A DNA stretch of 37,893 nucleotides. Source: Syncephalis plumigaleata (taxonomy: Eukaryota; Zoopagomycota; Zoopagomycetes; Zoopagales; Piptocephalidaceae). The stretch covers positions 1-37,893 of the forward strand of contig JAIXMF010000111.1 in NCBI GenBank assembly GCA_025201365.1. Direction: 5' to 3'. The position numbers and the translations under genes are program-made. How positions within the stretch are numbered: the first letter of the stretch is position 1; every line of letters starts with the position of its first letter. Shown here piece after piece: positions 16,362 to 34,559 of the stretch. The notes below the pieces were generated by a model. That model did no database searches. It was given only the letters and a program-made list of their open reading frames with translations, and was not told the origin of the DNA.

Positions 16362-16368
16362 TATAAAT
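16362..16368 (+). promoter_or_regulatory. TATA box of the microexon gene
   Basis: A TATAAAT within GGCTATAAATCG, 141 bp upstream of the ATG at 16509. It is followed by a C/T-rich leader with a 14-bp direct repeat (CTATTCTCGTTCTA, twice between 16420 and 16470). A strong TATA box is unusual among the genes here and suggests high or inducible expression. Confidence 0.6.
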
Positions 16369-16508: not shown

Positions 16509-18571
16509 ATGAAGTTCTCTGCCGTTATCGCTATTGCCGTCACCCTTGTCGCTCTCACCAGTCTGGTCGCCGTTGAAGCTAGTCCCGTCCTGGATCGTCG
16601 TGGTATGTCTGGCCGTGACCCTATCAATTGATGTACTAATCGTTGTCTATTGTTTCATTGTCTACCAATGATTACCGATAGGTGGTAAGTTCATGTATAT
16701 TAAACGATTGATTTCATATGTTAATCACATTGTAATGTTTATTCTTTTATTCATATGGTAGCTGAATGGGGTATGCTATCCTTTTGACTATAGCAAGTAC
16801 TATGCTAATTGTAGTGTAAATCAATATCATGTGTAATTACTTTTTCAAGATGTAAGCTACCATTCTAATTACAGTGCATGAATGTACTAATCACGATTTG
16901 TCACATGATTCGCTTATCATAGTGTGTAAATTACCATTTTGATTGCAATAAATAGCGTACTAATTTTAACGTGGCACCTGATTTCCTGTATGATAGGACG
17001 TAAGTTATCATTCTAACTGCATTGTATGAGATATTAACCACACTATGGCGTATGATTTGCATATGTTCGTGTATGATAGGACGTAAGTTGCTACCTGATC
17101 GTAATGAACGTGATACTAACTCCATGATCCATAATCAATACGTGTTTTCGTATAACAGCAAGTAAGTAATCGTTTTGACCGTAATGAATAACGTATTAAT
17201 TGTAACATAACACACGATCCATATGTTTCTGTATGATAGATTGTAAGTTATCATTCAATTCTGTGTACGGTGTACTAATCACGCTATGGCACGTAATCCA
17301 TACGTATGTCCCGGTATAATAGTGTGTAAGTTATCATTCCATTTATAAACTATGGTATACTAATTATGATGTGATACGTGATCCATACGTATATCTGCCT
17401 ATCTCAGTGTGTAGGTACCATTATGGTCGTAATGAATGGATGTACTAACTATGATACGCACACGATCCACATACATTCCTGTATGATAGAAAGTAGGTCA
17501 TTATTCTGACCATAATATAAATACGCTAATAACAATGTGGCTTATTATCCATGTCTGCTTGCGTATGATAGGTCGTAAGTTATCATTCTGGTTGTAATCT
17601 ATGGTGTACTAACTATACTATGGCACACGACTTTTTGTATGTTTCTGTATACAATAGATTGTAAGTCATTATTCTGACCGTAATGAATGAAGTATTAATT
17701 ATACTATGGCAACTAATCCACATATGCATGTATGATAGAATGTAAGTTAGCATTTTGCCTGTGATGAGTGATTTACTACTAACAGCGTTACACATAATCT
17801 ATATGCGCCATTGCATTATAGGGCGTAAGTTATCATTCTGGCCGTAATGAACGAGGTACTAATCACGCTATGGCACACCAATCTATATGTTCCCGTATGA
17901 TAGGAGGTAAGTTATTATTGCGATTATAATGTATGATTACTAATTATGATATGACATATGATCCGCACGTACCTGTATGATAGACCGTAAGTTGTCATTC
18001 TGGCGGTAATTTATGGCATACTAACTATGATACGGTGCACGATTCATTTACGGTTCTGTATGATAGACCGTAAGTTACCATTATGGCTGTAACCCATGTG
18101 GCACTGATTGTAAATGTGACACATGATCCATATACGTTTGTTTACGATAGGGAGTAAGTTACCATTCCAATCGTAATATATGGCGTACTAACTACATTAT
18201 TGCCACATAATCCACCTATGTTTCTGTATGATAGTATGTAAGTTATCATTTTGGCTATAATGAACGAATGTACTAATGATAATATGGCATATGATTTCCA
18301 TACATTTGTGGATAACAGTGCGTAAGTTACTATTCCCGATGATAACGTATGACTGTATTGATATTAATACGACACATGGTCTACCTATGCCCTCGTACGA
18401 TAGAGAGTAAGTGAATATCGCTGACCGTAACGTATGAATGAGTACTAATTACAGTATGGGCATGATTCACGTATGTTTGCGTATGATAGGACGTAAGTCA
18501 TCATTTCGATCGTCATTTATGAGAGACTAATCACAATACAATGTACATCATCTGAATAACAGCGTCATTAA
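16509..18571 (+). CDS. Secreted cysteine-containing peptide encoded mainly by one-codon microexons
   Basis: Exon 1 (16509-16602) encodes a typical fungal signal peptide (MKFSAVIAIAVTLVAL and so on, cleavage probably after VEA) and a short propeptide ending in Arg-Arg at residues 30-31, a Kex2-like site. After it come 24 introns of 70-83 bp, each with a GTAAGT-like donor, a central TACTAAY-like branch site and an AG acceptor. The exons between them are 3 nt, 9 nt, 2 nt and then twenty exons of exactly 3 nt in phase 0. The last exon adds two codons and TAA at 18569-18571. Spliced length is 177 nt, 58 residues. The predicted mature peptide of about 27 residues has four Cys spaced C-x4-CC-x10-C. 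Omitting the 2-nt exon gives a TGA stop two codons on, so the frame supports it. No known family is recognised; effector, signalling or antimicrobial roles are all possible. Splicing is inferred, not observed; skipping the whole array to the last exon would also stay open. Confidence 0.72.
16603..18562 (+). repeat. Array of 24 related introns separated by 2-9 nt exons
   Basis: Intron-exon map. Exon 2 at 16682-16684 and exon 3 at 16762-16770; exon 4 (AT) at 16850-16851. Then 3-nt exons start at 16923, 16997, 17080, 17159, 17240, 17323, 17408, 17490, 17572, 17658, 17739, 17822, 17904, 17984, 18067, 18151, 18235, 18319, 18404 and 18490. The last exon starts at 18563. Cys codons are those at 16923, 17323, 17408 and 18319. 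Typical intron features: a 5' block like GTAAGTTATCATTCTGGC, then CGTAATGAAYG, a central TACTAAYTAYRATATGGCAC, CAYGATCCATAYGT, and a 3' end in TATGATAG. The exact TATGATAG octamer abuts the exon in 11 of the twenty 3-nt exons, with one- or two-base variants in most others. The codons between share no consensus. Tandem duplication of an intron-plus-codon unit, or repeated insertion of an introner-like element, would both explain this. Confidence 0.8.
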
Positions 18572-18852
18572 GCAGTAAGCAACAATCCACAATAATCATA
18601 CTCATACTAATCCATTACGATTACAGAACAAGGCAAGGACACCATCAAGTAGATATTATAGGTATTCAAGTCAAGAATGTATTGGTGCAAGACCCTCATT
18701 TAGTGTCCATGCCATTCAAGCCATTATTCCTTAGGCCAAGAAATATATCTACAAGATCATTCAATCATTTATTGAATAAATATGTCGTATTGATCATTAC
18801 AATTACAGCTAGTCTAATAAGGAACCTAATTATACCTTTATTATTATTGCTA
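18572..18852. other. Convergent 3' region with a probable 3'-UTR intron
   Basis: Three bases after the microexon-gene stop lies a further donor (GTAAGC at 18575) and a branch site TACTAAT with acceptor TTACAG ending at 18626, so the 3' UTR may be spliced. The rest runs to the WASP stop codon. Confidence 0.5.
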
Positions 18853-33662: not shown

Positions 33663-34559
33663 TGATAGTGTGGGAGCTATGGTTGCTCGATTTGCTCAAG
33701 CACAATGTGTAGGCGATATACGATAAGGTAGAGTGAGTAGAGTGTAATAGGGACGATTGAACTGGAAGATGAAGATAAGTTTGTTCAATTCGTACAAAAT
33801 AGGACCCATATTTATAGTGGATAATGTAACGTTATTCAATATTGAAACTATGGTGAGTGTTGAAGGGACATGGCTGCAATACCAGCATAGACACCAATCT
33901 CATGATGCAGGAATGGTTGGGGGTAATAATGAGCAATAAGGAGCGCATCTCAGAAAGGATTACGTATACCTCTAGATACATTTAGTCAGTGGTGTTACCT
34001 TCAGATGCTCAAAAAAAGAGGATTACGTATACCTCTAGATACATTTAGTCAGTGGTATTACCTTCAGGTGCTCAAGAAAAGGAGGATCAATGCATCAAAG
34101 TGGCACAACTCCAAAGGTTCAAGAAAAAAAGGATTAGTGCAACAACGAGGATCAAACAGCGGAAAGCAACTTATTCGTGATTGTTATCGCTTCACATCCA
34201 AGATATGTAAGTTCTATCAACATGTCTATTATTAATATCACTGATTGCAATATGTGATATCGCTATCATTAACATTTCCCTCAACTGCTAGGGCAATGAC
34301 AACTACTCAATAATAATAGCAATGCGATAATGGTGTTAACAATTGTGTAAATCTGTTTATTAATAAACTGCAAATGTTAAAGGATAACAGTGTTAATTGG
34401 TTGGAAAAACGCTGTATAATAAAAAAGTAAAGATAAAGAATGATATAAAAATGATAGTAGTACTTGTTGTAGTTGTTATATGTCATAGTAATATAGGTAA
34501 AGGTAATTATAGGAGGTTATTGTCATTATCATTAGAGTAGTATCCCATTAGATGACTAT
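33663..34559. other. Poorly resolved region with possible gene remnant
   Basis: About 900 bp without a confident gene. On the + strand, 33750-33810 reads TIELEDEDKFVQFVQNRTHI before a stop, and 33950-34235 reads GLRIPLDTFSQWCYLQMLKK and onward to FTSKICKFYQHVYY. The two pieces could be fragments of one disrupted coding region. 34236-34559 is AT-rich with nothing recognised. Confidence 0.35.
33958..34084. repeat. 63-bp tandem direct repeat
   Basis: Two adjoining copies, 33958-34020 and 34021-34084, both starting GATTACGTATACCTCTAGAT. They differ at three positions in the body, all transitions, and slightly in an A/G-rich tail. The unit length is a multiple of three and one frame is open across both copies. 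A shorter diverged copy may follow to 34131. Confidence 0.9.

Follow-up and report, generated by a model that had tools for sequence, protein, structure and literature searches.

Genes built from many very small exons have been described in schistosomes and in aphids. The schistosome MEGs have exons of 6–81 bp (3–81 bp in the abstract of the source), mostly 15 bp, with 10–20 of them per gene and introns of 0.1–5 kb (PMC10526429). The gene family described here is like them in that a signal peptide is followed by many mostly in-frame microexons and the secreted products are variable (PMC10526429). It is unlike them, in a comparison of architecture and not of sequence, in having exons mostly of 3 nt and introns of ∼80 nt, and the 15-bp exons, long introns and trematode origin by which a schistosome MEG is recognised are not found in it. 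The bicycle genes of aphids have ∼17 exons per gene, with internal exons almost all in phase 2, and a megacycle gene has more than 100 microexons (PMC9168663). These genes are likewise putative secreted effectors with many small exons in a single phase, but they are not described there as consisting of single-codon exons (PMC9168663), and in place of phase 2 internal exons the main arrays of our family are in phase 0. Exons of 1–3 nt are known in plants, fungi and flies (PMC4674806, PMC12940212, PMC8831610, PMC7392893), among them the isolated exons of Arabidopsis APC11 (1 nt), Fusarium CYP621A (1 nt) and Drosophila homothorax (3 bp) (PMC4674806, PMC12940212, PMC7392893). They show that such exons can be spliced; unlike the arrays, they are single exons in ordinary genes. 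Searches at the level of titles and abstract openings, in literature with few subscription papers or bioRxiv preprints, returned no array of single-codon exons, and the one-codon-exon array is a new, extreme form of microexon gene.

The window, that is, the whole stretch of 37,893 nucleotides of Syncephalis plumigaleata DNA that was analysed, contains a locus which, judged on its DNA, is very probably a protein-coding gene with its mature part spelled one codon per exon (Table 1). The original prediction was of a signal-peptide exon followed by twenty 3-nt exons in a row and of a coding product of 177 nt. A frame-blind splice-chain parse recovered all of these features, and with every triplet included the coding length is exactly 177 nt with the stop. 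Exon lengths are 94, then 3, 9 and 2, then twenty times 3, then 12 nt, so that 21 of the 24 post-leader exons are 3 nt (the exceptions being 9, 2 and 12 nt). The array was also predicted to have a unit spacing of 75–86 bp, GTAAGT-like donors throughout and one codon per exon in phase 0. It does, with three refinements: unit starts lie 74–86 bp apart, the lower bound being 1 bp less; GTAAAT and GTAGGT occur beside GTAAGT; and phase 0 is reached only through the 2-nt exon AT, which moves the frame on from the leader's phase 1. Most other loci have 5 nt where the window gene has this exon. The array triplets read TGT GAC GAC CAA ATT TGT TGT AAA GTC ATT (1–10) and AAT GGC GAG ACC ACC GGA TAT TGC AGA GAC (11–20). 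The decoded precursor is MKFSAVIAIAVTLVALTSLVAVEASPVLDRR followed by GAEWDCDDQICCKVINGETTGYCRDRH*, or, written in three blocks, MKFSAVIAIAVTLVALTSLVAVEASPVLDRR GAEWD CDDQICCKVINGETTGYCRDRH*. A TATAAAT-like box also lies 5′ of the three other array genes in the comparison, and two of its three intronless relatives have one as well. The neighbours in the window encode a Ydc2-type mitochondrial resolvase, which points to a fungus, a WH2 protein and an actin-family protein. At window positions 33956–34087 a unit of 63 bp is repeated in tandem (2.1 copies, 94% matches).

Table 1. Features of the window gene (window numbering) and the positions of two further array genes
Feature	Position	Strand	Basis or remark
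TATAAAT, TATA-box-like	16362..16368	+	sequence
Leader exon, 94 nt: start codon, signal peptide, propeptide ending Arg-Arg; phase 1 at end	16509..16602	+	
3-nt exon GTG, phase 1	16682..16684	+	splice-chain parse
9-nt exon CTGAATGGG	16762..16770	+	splice-chain parse
2-nt exon AT, AAG acceptor; phase 1 to phase 0	16850..16851	+	splice-chain parse
Twenty consecutive one-codon exons encoding CDDQICCKVINGETTGYCRD; introns ∼80 nt	16923..18492	+	splice-chain parse
Terminal coding exon CGTCATTAAGCA = CGT CAT TAA GCA, 12 nt, holds stop	18563..18574	+	
3′UTR intron, 52 nt	18575..18626	+	
Conserved 3′UTR	18627..18790	+	right end nominal
AATAAA in conserved 3′UTR	18775-18780	+	
L037 array gene (with L057, L058)	C1, about 1411283-1417653	-	some GC-AG introns
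C68 array gene (L080, L081, L083-L085), leader MKVSIVTVFAAAFVAVAGVSLVDAETATGRGRGGS read by eye	C68, about 293,000-299,300		copy on C193

Kexin-processed fungal peptides and conotoxin-like precursors combine a conserved signal and a propeptide with a dibasic end, a variable mature part and fixed cysteines. The window family shares this layout of leader, dibasic site and fixed Cys; we know of no kexin-processed fungal or conotoxin-like precursor that is encoded codon by codon.

The family was analysed in a set of 20 loci, consisting of the window gene and L010–L028, which are not independent of each other. L009 was excluded because its leader is frameshifted. This locus (C35:76360-78415) is a 99% copy of the window gene with identical triplets, and is either a damaged copy or an assembly error. 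The parser scores donor, branch site, acceptor and intron length, is frame-blind and charges an equal cost for exons of 1–30 nt; its acceptor weights come from AG-NNN-GT sites and it prefers introns of ∼80 nt, which biases it toward such units. The refined version admits AAG acceptors and GC donors. Earlier parses without the AAG acceptor and weak donors had wrong ends, and a parser without GC donors placed three 7-nt exons and one 8-nt exon. The first exon of L018, L024 and L025 is 9 nt in the earlier parse and 3 nt in the refined one, the frame being kept either way. A 14-nt exon in L010 and L011 was rejected as probably a misparse of the 5-nt exon CGAAA, which leaves an equal remainder after division by three.

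Across the genome (383 contigs, 32.6 Mb), a DNA search found at least about 39 places (40 of 183 candidates scored; counted by hand), and there are at least 150 matches to the leader peptide (150 of 174 candidates scored, every scored one matching). Some intronless genes and some apparent duplicate haplotypes are among the leader matches. A genome-wide search for the regularly spaced unit, suggested with the original prediction, returned 1938 exact units of the form GTAAGT-N58-88-AG-NNN-GTAAGT, against 124 for the reversed pattern. With a 4-nt exon the same unit was found 36 times and its reversal 225 times, and for this reason the reversed pattern is not a clean control. The 20 parsed loci hold 451 exact units against 632 three-nt exons, which by extrapolation gives roughly 2,500 to 2,700 three-nt exons genome-wide. 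Many genes appear to be assembled out of runs of 20–45 one-codon exons.

If the triplets are codons, this should be apparent in exon lengths and in stops. The 20 loci have 679 array exons, 632 of them 3 nt and 26 of them 6, 9 or 12 nt, in a count that stops at the last 3-nt exon and omits 38 later ones (terminal exons and odd-length overruns). Multiples of three account for 658; 21 leave a remainder of two and none a remainder of one. All 679 are of 14 nt or less, and a microexon gene is one coded mainly in exons of up to 51 nt. An exon with remainder two stands directly before the main array in 19 of the 20 loci, where the leader's phase 1 must turn into phase 0, and it has an AAG acceptor in 11 of the 11 loci whose DNA was inspected, the window included; in L020 the refined parser did not place it. 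Both L015 and L026 have an extra 2-nt exon. The full-length MKFS...RR leader is present in 20 of 21 loci. In 13 of the 20 the frame stays open as far as a TAA within the terminal exon, and in L012 and L026 it is open with a doubtful end, while the parse gave no complete ORF in L014, L015, L019, L020 and L025.

No in-frame stop was found among 541 distinct triplets of the 20 loci (607 before identical contexts were merged), where ∼21 are expected from positional composition. The absence of stops from the twenty codons of the window array would by itself be weak evidence, and it is the family that makes the count informative. Read in +1, 49 of 485 neighbouring pairs give a stop, and in +2 only 1 of 485; beside the latter figure, NTA and most NTG triplets are rare in these loci. 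Among the 1938 exact units genome-wide there are five stops (TAA or TAG once, TGA four times) against 167 TAY or TGY. The single TAR match, L082, lies outside any array. The four TGA matches are two sites in one array gene, on C68, and in its copy on C193, so the view that the genome-wide stop matches are non-array was wrong for four of the five. The result of 0/541 is independent of these matches, and the weight given to the one-codon-per-exon reading and its rivals is therefore unchanged.

Over the 21 three-nt units of the window gene, values of 2 bits are reached in the donor and acceptor columns and of 0.16–0.24 in the triplet columns. The predicted conservation of splice sites was thus borne out, whereas the accompanying claim that the enclosed codon varies freely was not: Cys codons hardly vary, and stops are kept out. 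This was examined by aligning units between paralogues via their introns alone (18 loci, with L011 and L014 set aside as probable haplotigs). For units whose flanking introns are 85% or more alike, Cys codons match in 90 of 90 pairs, against 89 of 164 for the remaining codons; with the near-duplicate pairs L017/L019 and L023/L025 removed, the figures are 86 of 86 and 56 of 129. With introns 75–85% alike, agreement is 97.9% of 241 for Cys and 11.7% of 665 for others, and with introns 65–75% alike it is 50% of 8 and 7.2% of 335, some units in this last class perhaps not being orthologous. Between L018 and L024, triplets are 77.8% and introns 93.4% identical, with seven replacement and two silent codon changes, and in one unit (TAT/ATC) all three bases have changed between introns more than 95% alike. 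The comparison of L023 with L025 goes in the opposite direction (triplets 98.1%, introns 92.6%). From the sequences, it looks as if selection acts on the amino acids and not on the DNA or the splice sites. Selection on a spliced product, which the original prediction had put forward, is supported by the family without stops, the frame-keeping exon lengths, the fixed Cys codons amid other codons that change no more slowly than their introns, and the uninterrupted homologues described below.

The pattern C...CC...C is found in 14 of the 20 decoded arrays (read by eye). As to the exceptions, L021 is without the framework, L012, L014 and L022 have two Cys, L026 is without the last, and L019 is not traceable. 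L022 and L028 have nearly identical ends, and ∼12 codons of L028, including the CC pair, are absent from L022 with the frame kept; L022 is an in-frame loss of a block of units. Adjacent identical non-Cys codons number 20 against 14.9 in shuffles, a value reached in 95 of 1000, and we do not claim tandem duplication.

Several genes carry the leader without introns. In two of them, L056 and L068, the product is ...RRAPQGLSCDKEKCCIMDSDICRPSSAKTHA* and shows the C...CC...C pattern. The DNA of these two genes, CGTCGTG CCC CTCAAGGTC TATCT TGC, matches piece by piece what array exons give when spliced, for example in L014, CGTCGTG / CTC / CTCAAGAAC / CACCC / TGC. The mature peptides of L056 and L068 are identical and their propeptides clearly different. 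The joined 3′UTR TAAGCA-AACAAGACAAGG (variants allowed) is uninterrupted in nine other loci, and the same junction is split by an intron of 51–54 nt in 13 array loci. Intronless coding with the same leader and 3′UTR was seen in L030–L033, L035, L038, L041, L043, L048, L049, L052–L054, L056, L062, L063 and L065–L068. The other intronless members have mature parts that are very unlike (helical, Gly-rich or Pro-rich by eye), and the leader and UTRs are therefore more widespread than the Cys-rich product. L032 and L043 share promoter sequence and the TATA box with the window gene and so are not simple retrocopies; L056, in which the match is limited to a short stretch just 5′ of the start codon, may be one.

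A second comparison of this kind comes from L037, an array gene that has both 5′UTR and 3′UTR sequence in common with the window gene, shows no signal peptide on inspection by eye, and has a leader with 24 matches, itself included. The 75 exons after this leader include 63 of 3 nt and translate into 147 aa, two exon choices having been made by hand. In a genome-wide search the decoded body finds an uninterrupted 135-codon frame (L078, with a copy, L079) at E 4e-9, the query predating the assignment of the last 5-nt exon. The final chain has 63 of 144 identities to the uninterrupted ORF and, like it, ends in EE. The true exon order scores 57.8 bits against a maximum of 29.6 in 100 shuffles of exon order. 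A phase-1 reading gives 31.6 bits, which is attributed to the C-terminal exons being read in phase 1 past the 5-nt exon. With everything except the 3-nt exons masked, the score is 25.4 bits, which falls inside the range of the shuffles, and much of the statistical weight thus comes from the longer exons. Since this genome also has uninterrupted relatives whose proteins match, the sequences strongly suggest that the cell assembles this secreted-peptide family, and a few other kinds of gene, codon by codon.

The 679 introns have a median length of 80 nt. GTAAGT is the donor in 534, the acceptors are TAG (485), CAG (171) and AAG (23), and a YTRAY branch site, which is a feature that the parser selects for, is present in 665. 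Such strong donors, branch sites and acceptors within the introns fit intron definition. In the proposed mechanism, a TATA promoter would drive a pre-mRNA with the leader exon, 24 short introns up to the stop and one in the 3′UTR, and each intron would be recognised through its strong donor, GTAAGT in most cases, together with a branch site of the CTAAY type and an acceptor that is YAG or AAG. As there is hardly room for the machinery on two sites 3 nt apart simultaneously, neighbouring introns would have to go sequentially, each removal adding one codon to the growing exon. For the 1-nt exon of APC11, it has similarly been held that the flanking introns are hardly spliced simultaneously, and intron definition and recursive splicing have been proposed (PMC4674806). 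The mRNA, with 177 nt of coding, would give a secreted precursor, and a kexin-type protease would cut after RR to release a disulfide-rich peptide of 27 residues, C-x4-CC-x10-C. A conserved hydrophobic leader ending in RR is present in 12 of 12 aligned precursors (signal by eye). Units of intron plus codon would be gained or lost without a break in the frame. The actual splicing and its order, the secretion, the cleavage and the disulfides are steps that we infer from the DNA. The leader is conserved, an RR site and a Cys pattern are present, and codons change fast; from this we infer a role, as in other effector-like families, as a large, fast-diversifying repertoire of secreted, disulfide-stabilised peptides aimed at other organisms or cells. 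None of nine decoded or intronless proteins had a Pfam match at the curated cut-off, and a search of PDB sequences gave no family, the best match being plectasin (E 0.48).

The layout of the array is also like that of recursive splice sites, and splicing of the leader directly to the terminal exon would be compatible with the sequence alone. The whole of 16603-18562 would then be one long intron, perhaps removed recursively at AG-N3-GTAAGT, with no triplet in the mRNA. We regard this as highly improbable, because discarded triplets would have no reason to exclude stops, would not hold Cys codons constant amid changing neighbours and would not match uninterrupted ORFs, and a long intron has no need of a phase-setting exon with remainder two. 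Just as little weight is given to a non-functional tandem repeat or decayed copy, in which intron-like units have multiplied without selection. Units within an array are indeed alike and some copies look damaged (the frameshifted leader of L009, the extra 2-nt exons of L015 and L026), but the retention of GTAAGT in 534 and YTRAY in 665 of 679 introns (selected for by the parser), a family without stops, and codon-specific selection in both directions are not what decay would leave.

A further possibility, which would add to the one-codon-per-exon reading, is combinatorial splicing, with one-codon exons skipped at will to give many in-frame variants. Any 3-nt exon could be skipped in frame, and at the gene level L022 has dispensed with ∼12 codons of L028 in this manner; against it, the uniformly strong splice sites point to constitutive use, and we consider it rather unlikely.

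Very small exons are thought to be hard to recognise. If the splicing of one codon at a time is true, these genes would offer a natural setting in which to study intron definition and the order and fidelity of splicing, with 25 exact splices needed for the window message and 76 for the longest decoded. One intron unit added or deleted is one residue added or deleted, and this would be a route to protein diversity. It is possible, and we propose it tentatively, that the codon serves as an exon unit genome-wide, in ∼2,500 three-nt exons and at least four kinds of gene. Cassettes of intron and codon would be duplicated, lost and exchanged via intron homology, bringing residues in or out without damage to the frame, and exon skipping may yield in-frame peptide libraries. 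Standard gene prediction would probably overlook genes of this kind, and similar families may therefore hide in other genomes.

Not all of the array genes appear to be read in the same way. For the C68 gene the parse gives 71 exons, 68 of them 3 nt, and the same 3′UTR comes after them. Its last stretch of 48 exons has two stops in the triplet phase and only a shifted frame is open, so that here the codons seem to straddle exon borders. The small gene L036 (C1:2255883; its leader recurs unchanged on C104) begins with another kind of secreted leader and contains a few 3-nt exons, in phase 1 by eye.
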